IMG/VR virus record: IMGVR_UViG_3300030102_003466
Location: 1 to 25,380 of that record
DNA: 25,380 nucleotides
Origin: a virus
Strand: one strand, 5' to 3'
The position numbers and the translations under genes are program-made. This document shows, piece by piece, positions 14,686 to 25,035 of this stretch; the stretch's first letter is position 1, and each line of letters opens with the position of its first letter. The notes beneath the pieces were generated by a model. It worked only from the letters and a program-made list of their open reading frames with translations. It ran no database searches and was not told where the DNA came from.

Positions 14686-15084
14686 ATGGAATTAAATATA
14701 CGCAGACTCGAAGAGTCAGACTATGAAACATTAGTTAAATGGTGGGATTGGTGGCCAGGCTGGGAAGCTCCGCCTAAAACACTTTTGCCAGATACAGGTT
14801 TTATAGTAGAAAAAAACAATGTTGGTATAGTTTCGGCTTATGTTTATATGACGAATTCTAAGACCGCTATTTTTGATTGGGTAGTATCTAACCCAGAATA
14901 TAGAGAAAGTGACAGAAAAGACGCGATAAGGCTCTTAATTCAAGCTACAGAGACCGTTTTAAGAGATCAGGGTATAAAACATATATTTTCTTTTGTACGT
15001 CACAAAAATTTATTAAAAATACATGAAGATTTAGGATGGAATATTGATAAAAAACCATCGCACGAAATAATTAAAAATTTATAA
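14686..15084 (+). CDS. GNAT-fold acetyltransferase-like protein, possible T7 gp13-type virion assembly protein
   Basis: This 132-residue protein opens with the beta1-helix pattern of GNAT N-acyltransferases (NIRRLEESDYETLVKWW). A beta hairpin follows (GFIVEKNNVGIVSAYVYM), then a strand DWVVSNPEYRES leading into the long helix that normally binds acetyl-CoA. The canonical Q/RxxGxG/A loop is not clean (RESDRKDAI), so catalysis is uncertain. The C-terminus has FSFVRHKNLLKIHEDLGW, like the usual GNAT alpha4-beta7 end. ATG follows directly after the preceding stop. T7 gp13 is a 138-residue protein of this fold class located just before gp14-16, and this gene holds the same place before a gp14-sized protein. 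A structural-assembly role is therefore as likely as small-molecule or protein acetylation. Confidence 0.7.
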   Translation: MELNIRRLEESDYETLVKWWDWWPGWEAPPKTLLPDTGFIVEKNNVGIVSAYVYMTNSKTAIFDWVVSNPEYRESDRKDAIRLLIQATETVLRDQGIKHIFSFVRHKNLLKIHEDLGWNIDKKPSHEIIKNL

Positions 15085-17064: not shown

Positions 17065-20000
17065 ATGTTTCAATATAATGGTGTACAATATACATTGCAA
17101 GATGTAATAGAAACTGCAAATAGCTTAGGATTAACTTTATCTGAATATTTAGAAAAAAATCCAGAAGTTAAACAAATAGCAGAAGAACAGGATTTTCAAA
17201 ACCCCACAGCACAGGGTGCGGTTGTGGAGGGAACTGCAGCACCCGATATGGAGTCTCCTTCGGAAGATACTTTGTTGGAATTACTAAACAGAGAGGAAAT
17301 AGAAAGAGTAAGTAAAAGAGACTTTGCACTTCAACAAGAAATAAATAAATACGGTGGATATGCCTCTGAAGAAGAGAGACGTCAAAAACAAGATATTGTT
17401 TTTAAATATTATGAAGATAATTTTGAAGAAGACGGTTTAACTTATAAAGAAAGAACTGAAAAAAGAGCTAATACTTCTGTTGGTAAAATGATAAATTCTA
17501 TAGAAAATGCAATGATTAGAATTAAAGGATTTGAACCAAGATTAACATTAGCTACAAGAGGAATATTTACTAAAATACTTGGTGATGAAGCTATTGATAA
17601 ATTTGTAGAAAATCCTAATATAGGAGATTGGTGGAAAACTGGAATGAGTGATGACGATGTTCAAGTAGCATTAAATGAATTAAACAGATTAGAAAGCTTA
17701 CAAGGTAGAACTGGGAGTTTGTATGATGGTTTTAAAAATGGCGATATGGCTGAGCTTTTAGCTGGTACTGTAAACGCTATAACTTCTTTTGGTTCTTCCG
17801 CGCTTATTGGTGGTATGACTGGTGGAGCTGGTATAATGACAGACTTTTTTGCAGATTCATTTAGAAGAATTAATGTTGATAAAGCTGAAAGATTAGGGGT
17901 TGATCCAGTTGATTTAATGAATAGCGAAGATGCAGAATTTTATTTGCCTTTAGTATTAGGTGGGGCGGCAGGTGCGGCTGAAAGATTTGGTTTAAAAGGG
18001 GTAAGTAAAGCTATAAATGGAATAAAAGGAGGCACATTAAGAAAAATAGCAGGTAGACTTGTAGCGGGTGGTAAAGAAGCTGCTACAGAATATTTTCAAG
18101 GTGCACTAGAATCTGTTGAAATACCATTAGCAAAAAAAGAATATGATAAAGCTGCACAAGAATTATTTCAATATTTAGGCAGTAAAGAAGGTATAGAAAG
18201 TCTCTTACAAGGTTTTGTTGGAGGTGCAGGTGTAACAACAGGCGCAACAGCAAGTCCTAGAGAAGCAGCTACAATAGCAGCAACAAGTGCAGCTATAATA
18301 TCTCCAGAAGCGGTAGGGCTACTAACAGGTACATTAGCGCCTATGTCTATACGTAATGCAGCTAGCCAGTTGCGTTCGCCTCAAGATGTAAAAGAAATTG
18401 ATAAATTATCTTTAGAAATAGCAAAATTAGAAGAGCAAAAACTCAATGTTAAAGATAAAGATATAAAACAAAATATTGATGCTGCAATCGCTTCAAAAAA
18501 ATTAAGAATTAGTGAAATAATATCTAATGGTAATCAACAAATAAATGCTGTATCAGAAGCAGATTTAAAAGAAATTAGTTCTATGTCTGACTTGGCTAAG
18601 AAGTTTAACCAAGATATTAATGCATTAAATAAAAAATTAAGAGTTGATAAAACTATAAATAAGAAAGAATTTGATATTGCTAGAGCTACACTGTTAGAAA
18701 AATTTAGAGAAGATAAAGCAAATTTAGATAAAAAGATTTCAGATATATCTGTAAAAAATCAAAATATAGCTAAAAAGAATGAAGATCTTGTTAAAATTAT
18801 AAAGACTAGTAAAAACGAAGCAGCCGTTGAAAAAGCTAAAAATGATTTATTTGCTAATAATTCAGGATTTTTAAATAAATTAATTAATTCATCTTTTAAT
18901 CCAAATCTTGACACAGAATTAACTAAGGCTGATTTTACACAAAGTATTAATGAAGAATTTGGTAAGTTAATAAATACTTATGATATTACATTAGGTGTTC
19001 CATTTGGTGCATATATACAAAGAGAATTACCTAAAAGAATTGCAGGTATATTTGAAGCTCAGGTTGAAACTAAAGATGGTGAAATAATAGGTAAGACTGA
19101 TATATCTAAAATTCAATTAGCACAGGAACAAGCAATAGAAACTGGAAAAGGAGATATAGTTTCTGAATTAGTTACAGAAGAAGATTTAAATTTAGAATCT
19201 GCTACACCTATAACTGAAAATAGAATGTTTGAAAAAACAGGTTTAGAATCAGAAGCAATAAACACAGCAGCTAAACAAATATTAAAAGGTAAATTACCTG
19301 GACTAACTGAAGTAGTAGCAAGAGATAAAAACCCATTTTTAACAGCAGTTGAAAAAGCATCGGAAGGTAAATTTTTTGAAGCTATATATAAAAAATTAGG
19401 TGGTAATCTAAATAATACTAATCTTGCGGAATGGAAACAAATGTTAGAGCAAGACATAGATGATTTCTTAGCATTGGTTGAAGAATCAGGTAATAAAGAT
19501 TATAATAGAATTAAAAATAAATTCTTAAAAGGTATATATAAAGGCAAGAAAGTTGGTAGGGCTGATATGAAAACAGGTACAGCAGCTGGTGAGGGTAGAT
19601 ATGAATATCAAACACCAACAAGAGAACAAGCTATAGAATATTTTACCGAGGGTAAAATGACTACTTTAGTTGAAAGAAAGAAAACATATACAAAAATATT
19701 AGCACATGCTGTAGGTAAAAAAGGTATCAAAGCTGTTATAAAAGATACGGAAGTTCAAAAATCATTTACTGAAGTTCAAAAATTATTAGGTAAAGAAATA
19801 CCTACAAATATCAAAGCAAAAGTTATAGAAAGGCTTGATAGAGTTATTAAAGTTTTAGAAACACCTATTAAACCACCTGGTGCTTTAACAGCAGATTTTG
19901 GTGTATTTATTGCGGATGCAGTTAGAGATATAGCTTTAAAAATAGCTAAAGGTATTAAGTCAGCTTTAGAGAATGGTATAGCATTTAAGAAAGCTAAGCC

Positions 20001-23000
20001 ACAGGTTATTAAACAAGTAGCGTCTGAATTAAATTTAAATAAAAAATTAGAAAATAAATTTGTAAAAGAAGTAAGTGCTGCTGTAACTTTAGAAGATATA
20101 GTTACAAATAAGTTTGAAAAACGTATTGAAAAAACTTTTATAAAAATTACAAATGAAAGATTTAAAGATTCAATAAATGTTCAAATAAAAAATTTAAAAT
20201 CTAAGTTAAGTAAAGCTGATTCTGTTCAAGCTAAGCAAGATATATTATTTAGATTTTTTAAAACTATAAGTCAAACATTTCAAAAACCCGGAGCAAATAA
20301 TGTTTGGAAAGGCCAAACCGCTGAAGCAGCTTATAATTATTATCAAAAAGAATTAGGTATAAATTTAAAAGAACTAAAATTTACTATAAAAGCAGTTAAA
20401 GGTGGAAAAACAGTTGCATTTAAAGGAGAAAAAATATTACAAATTGCAGGTAGGCCAGCGGATCATAGAAGAGCTACAAAAGATGAAGCATACTATGAAG
20501 AAATAGTTGATGCAATGGATGAAAGATCAGAAGAATATAAGTCTTATATACTTTCTGAAATAGATTATTTATTAGAAAATAATGGAAAACAAGATGTTAT
20601 AGATTTTATTAGTATACAAAATTTTCATATTGATTCACCTTTAAGATTAGTTGGTAAATTAAATAAATATGAAAATAAAAAAGGAAAGAAAAAATATGAG
20701 CATACTCCTCCAATAAAACAACTACAAGACGAAATATATGAGGCTGTAAATTCTACAGATAATAAACAAGAAATTTTAACAAAAGTTGAAAAAATTCTTA
20801 ATAAAAGCAAAGTTGATTTAATAACTCAAGAATCAATGAGTAAGGTTGAAAAAATACCTGGTAGAAAAACAGCAGGTGAAGGTGATACAAGATATGAAGG
20901 GGTAATAGATCCTAATAATTTAGTTGAAATAAAAAGAAAAAATCAAAAGGCAACAGAATTATATAATGAAAGGGACTTAAACAAAGATATGAATATCATA
21001 ATAGAAGATAAAACAGGATTGCCTGCTGACGCTAGATATTCACAAGCAGTTGCTAAAAGACGTGGAAAAAGAAACAATAGGTTTAATTTCTTTGTACCAC
21101 ATAGTGCTGAAGATTTTTTAGGCTTAATGTATACATTATTACCTAAAGGTAAAAGAGGAGATAAAGCATTAGAATGGTTAAAACATAATTTACTTAATCC
21201 ATATGCAGTTGCAATGGAAAATATAAATCGTGAACGAATGCAAGTAATGAGTGATTTTACAGCATTAAAAAAGAAACTTTCTAAAGTCCCTAAAAAATTA
21301 AAAGAACCTATATTAAAAGGTGATTTTACAAATGAAGATGCGGTTAGAATATGGATATGGAATAGTATGGGTATTTCTGCAAGTGACTTACAACTTTCAG
21401 AAACTATTTATAAACAATTAGTTGATACGGTTAACAATAATCCAGATTTTTTAGAATTTGCTAAATTACTTAAAGCCATAAATAAACAAGATGGTTATCC
21501 AAAAGCAGATAAATATTGGAATGCTGGTAATATAACTACAGATTTATTAGGAAATTTAAATACTGAAAAAAGAGATAAACATCTAGAAATATGGCAAAAT
21601 AACGTTGACACTATTTTTGACGAAGACATGTTCTTAAAGCTAGAAGGTGAATTTGGCAAAAGTTATGTCAATGCTTTAAAAAATATATTAAAAAGAATGA
21701 AGTCTGGTCGAAATAGAACAGGATCAGGCGGCGATGCTGAGACTAGTGCTTGGTTAGACTGGATTAATAATTCTGTAGGTGTTATTATGTTCTTAAATAT
21801 TAGAACAGCTACGCTACAAACAATATCAACAATTAACTTTTTAAATTGGACTGATAATAATCCTTTAAAAGCCGGAGCTGCTTTTCTTAATCAAAAACAA
21901 TATTGGAAAGATTTTTCAATGATATTTAATTCTGATTATTTAAGAGAAAGAAGAGGTGGTTTAAAAATAAATATTGCTGAAAGTGAAATTGCAGATATGG
22001 CAAACAAAGGTGGTGTAAGAGGTGTTATAAGTTATTTATTAAATAAAGGATTTATACTTACAAGAATGGCGGATAGTTTTGCTATTGCTAATGGTGGTGC
22101 TGCTTTTTATAGAAATAGAGTTAATACATATTTAAAACAAGGTATGTCTCAAAAAGAAGCTGAGAATAAAGCGTTTTTAGATTTTAGAGAAATATCTGAA
22201 GAATCACAACAATCTTCTAGACCTGATAGAATATCAATGCAACAAGCTAGCCCTATGGGTAGAATTGTATTGGCATTTGGTAATACACCAATGCAGTATA
22301 CTAGAATTATGAAAAGAGCTGCACAAGATTTAGCAGCTGGCAGAGGTGACTGGAAAACTAATATATCAAAAATAGCTTACTATGGAACTATACAAAACTT
22401 TATGTTTAACGCGTTACAAAAAGCTTTATTTGCAATAGCACTTGATGATGAAGATGATGAAGAAGCAAAAGAAAGATATATTTCTGTAGCAGAAGGAATG
22501 GCTGATTCTATACTTAGAGGTACTGGTATTTATGGGGCTGCCGTTGTAACTGCTAAAAATGTTGCTATTGATGTTGCAAGAAGAGCAAAAAGAAAAAGAC
22601 CTAATTTTGCAGATTCAGCATGGAAATTATTAACAGTGTCGCCACCTATAAGTTCTAAAGTAACTAAAATTAGATCTGCATTATATGCTTTAGATTATCA
22701 ATTAGATGAGATGAAAGAAAAAGGTTTTTCATTAGATAATCCAGCATATATGATGGCAGCAAATGTTATAGCCGCAACAGCTAATGTACCAGCAGATAGA
22801 GTATTAAGAATGATAGATAATTATAGAGCAGCTTTTGCAGAAGATACAGAAACTTGGCAAAGAATAGCTTTATTATTAGGTTGGTCTACATGGGAAATAG
22901 GAATAGAAGATAACGATAAACAACAAAAGAAAGAATCCAAATCTATAGAACAACAAGCTAAGGATAGACTTAAAAAACATTTAGAAAAATATAAAAGAAA

Positions 23001-23007
23001 AAAATAA
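17065..23007 (+). CDS. Giant internal virion / DNA-ejection protein
   Basis: At 1980 residues this is the largest protein here, probably packaged in the head and ejected, in the place of T7 gp16 (1318 residues). Residues 1-75 resemble a small N-terminal tag domain followed by an acidic linker. Residues about 225-435 contain Gly/Ala-rich hydrophobic segments (SSALIGGMTGGAGIM, LPLVLGGAAGAAERFG, TTGATASPREAATIAATSAA) that could contact membranes. Residues about 440-600 are coiled coil. A long Lys-rich middle (600-1330) has no recognised domain. The C-terminal third carries the conserved-looking stretch PMGRIVLAFGNTPMQYTRIM and later hydrophobic helices, and it ends in a very basic tail. No lytic-transglycosylase motif like that at the start of T7 gp16 was seen. 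Its leader is aataaataaaatt, with no ribosome-site consensus. The class is fairly sure; the internal domains are unassigned. Confidence 0.72.
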   Translation: MFQYNGVQYTLQDVIETANSLGLTLSEYLEKNPEVKQIAEEQDFQNPTAQGAVVEGTAAPDMESPSEDTLLELLNREEIERVSKRDFALQQEINKYGGYASEEERRQKQDIVFKYYEDNFEEDGLTYKERTEKRANTSVGKMINSIENAMIRIKGFEPRLTLATRGIFTKILGDEAIDKFVENPNIGDWWKTGMSDDDVQVALNELNRLESLQGRTGSLYDGFKNGDMAELLAGTVNAITSFGSSALIGGMTGGAGIMTDFFADSFRRINVDKAERLGVDPVDLMNSEDAEFYLPLVLGGAAGAAERFGLKGVSKAINGIKGGTLRKIAGRLVAGGKEAATEYFQGALESVEIPLAKKEYDKAAQELFQYLGSKEGIESLLQGFVGGAGVTTGATASPREAATIAATSAAIISPEAVGLLTGTLAPMSIRNAASQLRSPQDVKEIDKLSLEIAKLEEQKLNVKDKDIKQNIDAAIASKKLRISEIISNGNQQINAVSEADLKEISSMSDLAKKFNQDINALNKKLRVDKTINKKEFDIARATLLEKFREDKANLDKKISDISVKNQNIAKKNEDLVKIIKTSKNEAAVEKAKNDLFANNSGFLNKLINSSFNPNLDTELTKADFTQSINEEFGKLINTYDITLGVPFGAYIQRELPKRIAGIFEAQVETKDGEIIGKTDISKIQLAQEQAIETGKGDIVSELVTEEDLNLESATPITENRMFEKTGLESEAINTAAKQILKGKLPGLTEVVARDKNPFLTAVEKASEGKFFEAIYKKLGGNLNNTNLAEWKQMLEQDIDDFLALVEESGNKDYNRIKNKFLKGIYKGKKVGRADMKTGTAAGEGRYEYQTPTREQAIEYFTEGKMTTLVERKKTYTKILAHAVGKKGIKAVIKDTEVQKSFTEVQKLLGKEIPTNIKAKVIERLDRVIKVLETPIKPPGALTADFGVFIADAVRDIALKIAKGIKSALENGIAFKKAKPQVIKQVASELNLNKKLENKFVKEVSAAVTLEDIVTNKFEKRIEKTFIKITNERFKDSINVQIKNLKSKLSKADSVQAKQDILFRFFKTISQTFQKPGANNVWKGQTAEAAYNYYQKELGINLKELKFTIKAVKGGKTVAFKGEKILQIAGRPADHRRATKDEAYYEEIVDAMDERSEEYKSYILSEIDYLLENNGKQDVIDFISIQNFHIDSPLRLVGKLNKYENKKGKKKYEHTPPIKQLQDEIYEAVNSTDNKQEILTKVEKILNKSKVDLITQESMSKVEKIPGRKTAGEGDTRYEGVIDPNNLVEIKRKNQKATELYNERDLNKDMNIIIEDKTGLPADARYSQAVAKRRGKRNNRFNFFVPHSAEDFLGLMYTLLPKGKRGDKALEWLKHNLLNPYAVAMENINRERMQVMSDFTALKKKLSKVPKKLKEPILKGDFTNEDAVRIWIWNSMGISASDLQLSETIYKQLVDTVNNNPDFLEFAKLLKAINKQDGYPKADKYWNAGNITTDLLGNLNTEKRDKHLEIWQNNVDTIFDEDMFLKLEGEFGKSYVNALKNILKRMKSGRNRTGSGGDAETSAWLDWINNSVGVIMFLNIRTATLQTISTINFLNWTDNNPLKAGAAFLNQKQYWKDFSMIFNSDYLRERRGGLKINIAESEIADMANKGGVRGVISYLLNKGFILTRMADSFAIANGGAAFYRNRVNTYLKQGMSQKEAENKAFLDFREISEESQQSSRPDRISMQQASPMGRIVLAFGNTPMQYTRIMKRAAQDLAAGRGDWKTNISKIAYYGTIQNFMFNALQKALFAIALDDEDDEEAKERYISVAEGMADSILRGTGIYGAAVVTAKNVAIDVARRAKRKRPNFADSAWKLLTVSPPISSKVTKIRSALYALDYQLDEMKEKGFSLDNPAYMMAANVIAATANVPADRVLRMIDNYRAAFAEDTETWQRIALLLGWSTWEIGIEDNDKQQKKESKSIEQQAKDRLKKHLEKYKRKK

Positions 23008-23009
23008 TT

Positions 23010-23141
23010 ATGGCAAAAGACGCGTGTTACAAAAAAGTAAAGGCAAGATATAAAGTCTTTCCTTCTGCATATGCTAGCGGGGCATTAGCAAAGTGTAGAA
23101 AAGTAGGAGCAGCTAACTGGGGTAATAAATCTAAAAAATAA
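23010..23141 (+). CDS. Small basic two-cysteine protein (43 residues)
   Basis: The ORF runs from ATG to TAA with the usual A/T leader (aaaaaataatt) 2 bases after the giant gene. The product starts MAKDACYKKVKARYKVFPSA and ends GAANWGNKSKK. The text KKVKARYKVFPSAYASGAL is one I recall from tiny proteins of marine phages and some algal viruses, which argues that the frame is real despite its size. About 28% of residues are Lys or Arg, and there are two cysteines (6 and 29). No function is known to me; a nucleic-acid-binding role is possible from its charge. It is the first of four similar small basic genes. Confidence 0.78.
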   Translation: MAKDACYKKVKARYKVFPSAYASGALAKCRKVGAANWGNKSKK

Positions 23142-23144
23142 ATC

Positions 23145-23267
23145 ATGGCAAAAAAATATAAACCACATATGATGTATTGCAAAGATGGTTCAGCAACCAA
23201 AGCAATGACATACAAAGAACATTTAGCATTAAAGAAAAAAGGGTGCGGGCATAAAAAACCTAAATAA
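23145..23267 (+). CDS. Small basic Cys/His protein (40 residues)
   Basis: This short ORF has its own A/T leader and overlaps the next gene by one base (TAATG), the compact coupling seen elsewhere in the window. The product begins MAKKYKPHMMYCKDG and ends KKKGCGHKKPK. Cys12, His26, Cys34 and His36 could form a small metal site, but spacing alone does not prove this. About 30% of residues are Lys. The PHMMY...HLALKKKG pattern is familiar to me from small marine-phage proteins. Function unknown. Confidence 0.75.
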   Translation: MAKKYKPHMMYCKDGSATKAMTYKEHLALKKKGCGHKKPK

Positions 23268-23554
23268 TGGCTGATCCAATAAAAGGCACAGGTAAAAAAC
23301 CTAAAGGTAGTAGTAGACGTTTATATACAGACGAAAATCCAAAAGATACAGTTAGTATTAAATATGCAACCGTTGCAGATGCTAGGGCAACCTGCGCTAA
23401 AGTAAAAAAAATTAATAAGCCTTATGCTCGCAAAATACAGATACTAACTGTTATGGAGCAAAGAGCTAAGTATGGTAAAAAGCCACAACAAGCGGCTATA
23501 GCTAAAAAATGTAAAATGGCATTAAAAAGAAAACATGGCAGTAAGAAAAACTAA
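23267..23554 (+). CDS. Small basic protein with KGTGKKPKGS motif (95 residues)
   Basis: The start shares one base with the stop of the preceding gene. The N-terminus reads IKGTGKKPKGSSRRLYTDEN, followed by DTVSIKYATVADA; I recall this combination from small proteins in marine phages and algal viruses. The remainder is helical and Lys-rich (for example AAIAKKCKMALKRKHGSKK). It has two cysteines (43 and 82), and 27 of 95 residues are Lys or Arg. The charge suggests DNA or RNA binding, possibly as packaged or condensing protein, but the sequence does not show it. Its 3' end overlaps the next gene by 20 bases, so the two are probably translated together. Confidence 0.78.
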   Translation: MADPIKGTGKKPKGSSRRLYTDENPKDTVSIKYATVADARATCAKVKKINKPYARKIQILTVMEQRAKYGKKPQQAAIAKKCKMALKRKHGSKKN

Positions 23555-23810
23555 AAAAGGACTAGCACTTAAACGTTGGTTTAAAGAAAAATGGATTGAT
23601 GTACGCACAGGTAAACCATGTGGTAGACGAAAGGGCGAAAAGCGTGGTACACCTTATTGTAGACCAAGTAAAAGAGTATCAAGTAAAACACCTAAAACTT
23701 CTGGTGAAATGTCTGCTTCGGAAAAAAGAGCTAAAATTGCAGAAAAAAAGCGATTAGGGCAACCAGCAGGCAAGCCAAGGAGAGTAAAAAACGTTAAAAG
23801 ACGTAAATAA
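23535..23810 (+). CDS. Small very basic protein with KWFKEKW-type motif (91 residues)
   Basis: This frame overlaps the previous gene by 20 bases. The product contains LKRWFKEKWIDVRTGKPCGR, then GTPYCRPSKRV, and ends in a Lys/Arg cluster (RRVKNVKRRK). The FKEKW...PCGR...YCRP layout is one I associate with a domain of unknown function found in marine phages and large algal viruses (I believe DUF5872, from memory). The two cysteines (29 and 42), with nearby Arg and Lys, could form a small knuckle. Over a third of residues are Lys or Arg. It closes the set of four basic genes and is followed by a 34-base gap. Function unknown; nucleic-acid contact is a reasonable guess. Confidence 0.8.
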   Translation: MAVRKTKKGLALKRWFKEKWIDVRTGKPCGRRKGEKRGTPYCRPSKRVSSKTPKTSGEMSASEKRAKIAEKKRLGQPAGKPRRVKNVKRRK

Positions 23811-23844: not shown

Positions 23845-25035
23845 ATGAAACAAATTTTAACTATTTTAGCGTTATTAATATCATTTAATATTACTGCGCA
23901 AGAGGAAAAGAAAAAAGGTAAATTTTTCAAATCTATTTATGATGAATTATTTAAATATGGTACATTATATGTAGCAGGTGATATTAAAAATCCAAGAGAA
24001 AATCCTAAAGATTATTTTGTAAGAACAAACCCTGATGGTAATTTATACACACCGCCAGTTGTTGTTGATGGTACAGATTATTACGATTTTGATTATCGTT
24101 ATGGTTTTGGTATTCGTAAAATAGCAAGATTTGATTATGAAAGAAAAGCTAAAGATTACTATAACGGTACTGAATCTAACGTAGCTATGACAGCTCCTAA
24201 TTCATCCGTTAAAGGTTTGGAATATGTATTTCATACAGAAAAAGAAAGATCCAGAGATGAGATATTTAAAAATCATCGTTATTTTGTAAAACATAGTGGT
24301 AAATACCACATGGTTAAACTAGAAAGTAGAGCACAAGGTAAAGTTGATTTTAAATATAAATCAGCAGAAGTTAGAGCTAAATTACCTATTGGTAAAAAGT
24401 TTAGTTTATCAGCAGGTGCAATGTATCGTACGCATGAAAGAGCTTATGGATATAATCCAATTGAAATATGGTTAAATGAAACAAATGAAAATGGTTGGCC
24501 AGTAAATTATTGGTACCAGTTAGGTTATCAATACGGATATACAGATCAATGGGTTACTATTAATATTGACGGTGAAGATGTATACGATTATTATTGGTAT
24601 GATCCAGAAGGAAACACGGTAGCTTATACAGATTTACAGTTCCGTGATACTATATTTGAATCATTAATTAATCGTTACAATAATGAACAGTGGGATTTAT
24701 TAGATCCATTCGGTGTTATATCGCCTGTAGTCGGATTTGATTTTTATCATTTCAAGTCAAACTTCTGGCTTCACGCTTATGGTTCTTATTTATTGCCATA
24801 TCATAAATATGTTGAAGGTGATGAAGATTTTAGTTATTTAAATAGAAATAACTGGGGATTAGGTGGATTAAGACAAGATTCAGAACTTGAACAATGGGAA
24901 GATTTTCAAGCTGGTATAAACTTTGGATGGAAACTAAACAGATCAATAGGTGTATTCTTCGAGGGTGAATATACTAAGTTCTGGGATAGTAGAATATATA
25001 ACGGGTCTGTTGGACTAAATATAACACTAAGATAA
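23845..25035 (+). CDS. Secreted, outer-membrane beta-barrel-like protein
   Basis: This 396-residue protein starts with a signal peptide: MKQ, a hydrophobic core (ILTILALLISFNI) and a predicted cut at ITA|QEE. The Gln at the new N-terminus matches the Bacteroidota Q-rule for signal peptidase I substrates. The mature chain is rich in Tyr, Trp, Phe and Gly with alternating strand patterns (YYDFDYRYGFGIRKIARFDY; WLHAYGSYLLPYHKY), and it ends in strands of outer-membrane-barrel style (IGVFFEGEY ... NGSVGLNITLR). I recall related unannotated proteins in uncultured marine phages. It overlaps the next gene by one base. A host-envelope role such as lysis, receptor masking or superinfection exclusion is possible; a virion component is less likely because of the signal peptide. 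The barrel call is from pattern only. Confidence 0.7.
   Translation: MKQILTILALLISFNITAQEEKKKGKFFKSIYDELFKYGTLYVAGDIKNPRENPKDYFVRTNPDGNLYTPPVVVDGTDYYDFDYRYGFGIRKIARFDYERKAKDYYNGTESNVAMTAPNSSVKGLEYVFHTEKERSRDEIFKNHRYFVKHSGKYHMVKLESRAQGKVDFKYKSAEVRAKLPIGKKFSLSAGAMYRTHERAYGYNPIEIWLNETNENGWPVNYWYQLGYQYGYTDQWVTINIDGEDVYDYYWYDPEGNTVAYTDLQFRDTIFESLINRYNNEQWDLLDPFGVISPVVGFDFYHFKSNFWLHAYGSYLLPYHKYVEGDEDFSYLNRNNWGLGGLRQDSELEQWEDFQAGINFGWKLNRSIGVFFEGEYTKFWDSRIYNGSVGLNITLR

Follow-up and report, generated by a model that had tools for sequence, protein, structure and literature searches.

Small, basic, two-cysteine proteins of a flavophage-like podovirus as members of an apparent module set of marine phages and probable head cargo

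Background

Phage T4 holds small internal proteins in its head (IPI, IPII, IPIII and Alt), which are matured by gp21, a protease that cuts after L/I-X-E (PMC9026906, PMC5694885). In cyanophages related to T4, PHROG 727 (T4-GC119) is a long multi-module myovirus protein, here called a string. DUF5872 (PF19197) is a family without an attached function that is annotated in a large algal virus, Chrysochromulina parva virus (PMC12085832), and DUF6321 (PF19846) is another basic two-cysteine module. Such module families are already known as names without function; in full-text literature searches DUF5872 gave a single paper and DUF6321 and DUF6496 gave none. A literature search on cyanophage prohead protease together with polyprotein returned, in its listing and abstracts, nothing evidently on the strings.

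We analysed a virus record of 25,380 bases (IMGVR_UViG_3300030102_003466; hereafter the window), which is classed as linear and is perhaps a fragment. Near its end lie four consecutive small genes, A to D, for strongly basic proteins with two cysteines each. They compare with the described systems as follows. The protein D is a member of DUF5872, and A matches PHROG 727 internally, the window having single-module podovirus genes where PHROG 727 is one long protein. With the T4 internal proteins the likeness is one of logic: A-D are known from their genes alone and start at or near the module, with no propeptide, and it is the cyanophage strings that carry motifs matching gp21-type sites.

Results

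The phage and its gene order

The capsid protein of the window is 40-48% and the terminase 47-65% identical to the best matches among those listed, which come from the phages Flavobacterium elemo and Maribacter Panino and from a podovirus of environmental origin; Cellulophaga phages also figure in the match tallies. Judged by these proteins, the window phage is a podovirus related to Flavobacterium, Cellulophaga and Maribacter phages. The window and its relatives share the order terminase, portal, scaffold-like gene, capsid, tail genes, in some an acetyltransferase, and a giant protein. A-D close this structural block, after the giant protein and before genes of 396 and 95 amino acids. The 1980-aa gene directly upstream of A (17065..23007, +) has, by gene order alone, the position of the giant "structural protein" of elemo-type flavophages; it contains no cysteine, and its residues 588-693 match an RNA polymerase sigma factor PHROG (E 1.3e-6). 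A 132-aa GNAT-like gene (14686-15084; sub-threshold Pfam match, phrog_17252 at E 6.7e-28) within the structural block is placed similarly to a gene labelled N-terminal acetyltransferase in MW202828.

Downstream of D, the 396-aa gene (23845..25035, +) forms part of the context; its product has a flavobacterial-looking signal peptide, is possibly a cell-surface protein, and gave no family in Pfam or PHROG searches. A similar-looking 405-aa gene lies 3' of the cassette in another locus (L037). The 95-aa gene that follows in the window has weak holin and spanin profile matches. When A, C and D were searched by tblastn against the phage collection, no flavophage isolate was found among the matches listed; for A, 306 further rows were covered by the organism tally alone.

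A cluster of four basic genes

All four genes are ATG ORFs on the plus strand: A (43 aa, 23010..23141; DACY...FPSAYASG...CRKVGAANWGN), B (40 aa, 23145..23267; a rare two-cysteine basic protein), C (95 aa, 23267..23554; predicted helical) and D (91 aa, 23535..23810). A and B are spaced by 3 bases, B and C overlap by 1 base (TAATG), and C and D overlap by 20 bases. Re-calling the ORFs reproduced the coordinates, spacings, overlaps and cysteine counts of the original prediction. The unusual basicity that it described is equally clear: Lys+Arg makes up 27.9% of A, 30.0% of B, 28.4% of C and 37.4% of D (net charge +11, +10, +21 and +28), a composition of the protamine/histone-like class, against 6.8-15.2% in the remaining 15 window genes. 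Those 15 have 14 cysteines in 8063 aa; A-D have 8 in 269 aa, two per protein, where 0.47 would be expected (Poisson P about 4e-8). The four-gene cluster is a real, non-random feature.

Substitutions between A, B and D and their relatives in two other loci (L001 and L002) fall mostly at codon position 3 (for D versus L001, 9/3/28 over the three positions), and A, B and D are thus genuine genes. The differences of C from its relatives are less clear-cut (17/16/32); as a gene, C is backed by its conservation across 99 sequence sources, the window included, in a profile search.

Relatives of A, B, C and D

D passes the curated cut-off of DUF5872 (56.3 bits against 27.5, E 6.1e-15), its residues 4-73 aligning with profile positions 48-111, in the C-terminal half. 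A alone stays under that cut-off (14.4 bits, E 0.06, profile 11-43). A 136-aa fusion of A and D found in other loci runs along profile positions 8-90 at 25.8 bits, just below the cut-off, which suggests that DUF5872 corresponds to A and D joined in a single chain; in the window these two are separate, with B and C between them. At least 580 stretches related to D were found in viral contigs. A plasmid search with D gave no match, and its alignment against genome contigs gave nine loci, whose titles denote MAG contigs or other environmental genomes, so that no clear cellular D family emerged.

A matches PHROG 727 at E 2.4e-19, over profile positions 268-308 and thus only 41 of 450; as far as the alignment goes, A shares one internal module with PHROG 727 and not the whole architecture. 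By tblastn, A matched 366 phage records, mainly cyanophages, with up to about 92% identity, and C matched nine, including HTVC033P and gp123 of Bellamy, a string in which A and D are also found beside C. These matches of A, C and D bear out the suspected kinship to small proteins of marine phages, and the link to large algal viruses made with it is upheld by the DUF5872 annotation in Chrysochromulina parva virus (PMC12085832). B has no family in Pfam, PHROG or NCBIfam and no tblastn match in the phage collection; its profile gave 11 matches, which are 10 unique sequences with the window's own counted. NCBIfam holds nothing for A-D.

In the AlphaFold2 model of C, residues 31-90 have a pLDDT of roughly 90 or higher. 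A fold search with this model gave no match in PDB at E 0.001 or better, and profile searches of solved structures with the strings and with D yielded no match with an E value of 1 or below. Two virus proteins of BFVD, named cytidyltransferase and SET domain protein, match C by fold. A likeness of C to Larp7, the best of three weak solved-structure matches (E 0.047), was not credited.

Separate genes and strings

Some marine phages encode C, D and A, together with two further modules, E (DUF6321) and F (a CWKGYEKKG unit), in small genes of their own, and T4-like cyanophages join them in one protein. We searched 248 loci and the window with profiles A-F; the loci had been fetched with D, C and Syn19_101 as queries, so the counts establish the existence of the two states but not their frequency. 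One-module small ORFs numbered 98 for D, 93 for A, 89 for C, 75 for E and 11 for B. Multi-module long ORFs were arranged as D-A-F-E (33), C-D-A-F-E (9), D-A-F-F-E (8), D-F-A-E (6) and others, with E the last module in most strings. Among 80 loci fetched with an A+D fusion, a third state, A and D in one small gene, was present in 50, A and D lay in separate ORFs in 27, and the remaining three lacked such a pair. With one cyanophage string protein, tblastn matched 491 of 50,697 phage records. Going by these profile matches, A-D are members of a wider interchangeable module set of marine phages. The window fragment differs from this set in that the E profile found no match among its ORFs of at least 25 aa, and F is likewise absent.

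Within 3 kb of D, in 80 loci fetched with D, we found A in 76, E in 49, B in 8 and C in 7. Near C, in 80 loci fetched with C, D was found in 19, E in 20, A in 15 and B in 2. These counts are lower bounds because many contigs are incomplete. A and D are thus partners, and B and C occasional partners. The expectation that the four proteins work together holds for A and D, which are close neighbours in most D loci and fused in many others, and is weak for B and C; four genes as a fixed cassette were rejected for these two on the same counts. The outcome named beforehand as fatal to the prediction, neither homologues nor co-occurrence, did not arise, as homologues were found and A and D co-occur.

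Strings lie near terminase genes in Syn19, Bellamy and P-SSM2, and rows of small, mostly basic genes are present in P-SCSP2, HTVC033P, HTVC023P and CRP-7. Genes adjoining the modules are terminase, portal, scaffold or capsid genes in Syn19, P-SSM2, Bellamy, P-SCSP2 and CRP-7, and in many D loci the modules stand among head and tail genes. In HTVC033P and HTVC023P their neighbours include genes of lysis type, namely amidase and peptidase M15. Among the genes that flank D cassettes (L027:5502-8096 and neighbours), some match amidase/virion, baseplate or tail-fibre PHROGs (10 of 90 neighbour clusters searched). In 22 loci we found a total of 22 ORFs that finish with a C-terminal tag, RGCG-x-V...RRK-x-T; 15 of them have A, 4 have D and 3 have neither (for example L034:54-236, L044:4110-4292, L062:4116-4298 and A or D genes of other loci). 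The tag may be another exchangeable module.

Paired cysteines

Of 85 aligned free A sequences, 73 have both cysteines, 10 lack cysteine in both columns and 2 have gaps there; reading the rows of the 10 showed four with two slightly shifted cysteines and six without cysteine. Both were present in 8 B sequences and absent from 2. For D, 87 have both and 4 are gapped, and for E, 68 have both. C departs from this, with 11 that have both, 64 that have neither and 1 gapped: two cysteines each holds for A-D of the window but is no general trait of C. Single-cysteine forms were absent among the scorable sequences of A-E, which is the pattern expected of a disulfide pair, and the relatedness of the sequences inflates any P value on this pairing. 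A set of three or four conserved metal ligands was not found: D has two near-invariant or invariant cysteines and no histidine, A in strings has two invariant cysteines and no invariant histidine, and C is mostly free of cysteine.

Candidate cleavage sites in string linkers

The pattern [ILVMF]xE[AGSK], which is wider than the gp21 site, occurs 436 times in 71 different strings against about 182 in shuffled sequences, and 188 against 89 after thinning to 30 representatives. Replacing E by D, K, Q or N gave 0.48-1.17 times the expectation. The reversed motif reached 1.27-1.46 times and is thus itself above 1; [LI]xE alone reached 1.72 times and its reverse 1.31. The comparison set, 172 non-string ORFs from these loci, had 325 motifs against 318 expected (1.0 times). 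At most 14 aa upstream of a module, the motif was present in 43 of 59 distinct stretches for A (shuffled mean 10.0), 29 of 46 for E (6.4), 47 of 53 for F (8.1) and 19 of 39 for D (3.4). The enrichment fails in single proteins (S-CREM2 gp137, P 0.11; S-SZBM1_139, P 0.26; S-SZBM1_194, P 0.54). An AlphaFold model of one string (L173; mean pLDDT 61, pTM 0.25), used solely to locate disordered linkers, has the linkers as low-confidence stretches. The linkers of cyanophage strings thus carry enriched and well-placed putative cleavage sites.

Module-bearing proteins in purified virions

We searched the whole record of cyanophage S-CREM2 with DUF6321, string, C and D profiles, and module-bearing stretches were found only in gp160 (D-F-A) and gp137 (E). 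Both are in the published mass-spectrometry list of CsCl-purified virions, gp160 with 7 unique peptides and 13.1% and gp137 with 4 unique peptides and 4.1% (PMC10665884, Table 3). The same searches of S-SZBM1 identified _192 (E) and _139 (F), of which _139 is in the virion list with 4 peptides and 10.5% and _192 is missing from it (PMC9146016, Table 1). In the two published lists, three of four module-bearing proteins were thus detected, one with both D and A. As base rates, 52 proteins were detected in S-CREM2, with 221 annotated features in its record (PMC10665884), and 30 of 218 ORFs in S-SZBM1 (PMC9146016); the S-CREM2 authors allow that some listed proteins may be carry-over (PMC10665884). 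Residues 17-46 of gp160 (L165:4239-5132) include GPVAGYDPLMG, which is similar to GPVAGFDPVLI, a stretch close to the N-terminus of the Bellamy capsid protein; this capsid N-arm-like stretch is a single case in the set and was set aside as evidence.

The string T4-GC119 is labelled "hypothetical" in the records of S-SM1, Syn19 and P-SSM2, and virions of S-SM1 have been analysed (PMC3037559). Strings in the S-P4 and RN05-S records have the label "structural protein", of unknown provenance. Cryo-EM of P-SCSP1u describes a shell of the major capsid protein alone, which is neutral on internal cargo.

Enzyme-like company of the strings

S-adenosylmethionine lyase is an anti-restriction type of domain. 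It was matched (E 6.7e-8) by S-SZBM1_194 (L249:3253-5376, - strand), a basic 706-aa protein whose gene is near the small terminase gene and shares a gene row with the DUF6321-bearing _192. This protein also has a sub-threshold DUF3008 match; it contains none of the modules A-F convincingly, and the cleavage-type motif is without enrichment. DUF192 was detected in 12 of 49 strings. Cytidylyltransferases themselves are present in virion lists (PMC3037559, PMC10665884, PMC9146016). This company of enzyme-like domains, together with the cytidylyltransferases in virions, is a hint, and no more than a hint, that strings may bring in cargo with a role in the host.

Discussion

String relatives of the modules are found in purified virions, and therefore A-D are probably carried in the head with the DNA. 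On balance we think it somewhat probable that A-D are virion-internal cargo modules that travel with the DNA, by a logic like that of the T4 internal proteins. The packaged set is the best reading among those offered by the original prediction, both module-bearing proteins of S-CREM2 being in the published virion list and one of them containing A and D.

Late basic proteins that are never packaged and act in the dying cell, by helping lysis or binding host nucleic acid or ribosomes, would be an unlikely alternative, in which the virion matches are carry-over of the kind the S-CREM2 authors allow (PMC10665884). It would fit the amidase and peptidase M15 neighbours in HTVC033P and HTVC023P, the weak spanin and holin matches of the neighbouring window gene, and the "hypothetical" label of T4-GC119 in three records. 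The strings of Bellamy, Syn19 and P-SSM2 adjoin terminase genes, however, three of four module-bearing proteins are in the virion lists, and the motif is enriched in strings and not in neighbouring ORFs; paired cysteines would also suit an extracellular setting better. The charge, +10 to +28 on 40-95 aa and +13 to +25 per 100 aa in string modules, is what one would expect of purely structural, protamine-like counter-ions of DNA with no later role in the host, yet the sharply conserved non-basic positions (PSAYASG and the C, G and W residues) exceed what a counter-ion needs. Together with the S-AdoMet lyase of a related string-type protein (S-SZBM1_194) and the cytidyltransferase and SET labels on the two BFVD matches of C, they make this explanation distinctly improbable.

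Small zinc-binding regulators, another proposal of the original prediction, are disfavoured. Two cysteines per protein, kept as a pair in A, B and D, would agree with it, but there are only two, no invariant histidine accompanies them in D or in string A, and the pair is missing from 64 of 75 C, six A and 2 of 10 B sequences, so we regard it as very unlikely. Chance ORFs might be imagined in an A-rich stretch, as lysine codons are A-rich and the ORFs are short; homologues in many phages with up to 97% identity, the third-position bias and the conserved gene order refute this, and we give it practically no weight.

For cargo in the head, the following course would be consistent with these observations. 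For the window's own proteins we infer packaging, DNA binding, disulfides and action in the host, and for the strings actual cleavage. Expressed late, the free-standing basic modules encoded by A-D would be packed into the head alongside the genome. Charge would largely hold them there, and most would be stapled by an internal disulfide after the particle has left the reducing interior of the cell. They would enter the host with the DNA and then either merely release it or act early against the host. In T4-like cyanophages the same modules would be made as one string, to be cut in the linkers by the prohead protease at h-x-E|[AGSK] during head maturation; the window podovirus makes separate genes and so would need no cutting.

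A broader picture is tentative, and we consider it possible but more doubtful. Unrelated marine phages (flavophage-like podoviruses, pelagiphages, roseophages and cyanomyoviruses) and perhaps large algal viruses may all draw on a single toolkit of exchangeable basic cargo modules, stapled by disulfides, which would be packaged with the genome and injected along with it. These would be separate genes in podoviruses and a protease-cut polyprotein in T4-like phages, and the strings would be loading racks that recombine modules, sometimes with a SAM lyase or a cytidylyltransferase.

As far as the literature searched reaches, what is new is the reading that these families form a single exchangeable set of cargo, encoded either separately or strung together. 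If they are indeed packaged cargo, this would give a concrete, testable role to a class of short unknown genes that is very common, and would illustrate two ways of carrying one cargo, in separate genes and in a string that a protease can cleave.
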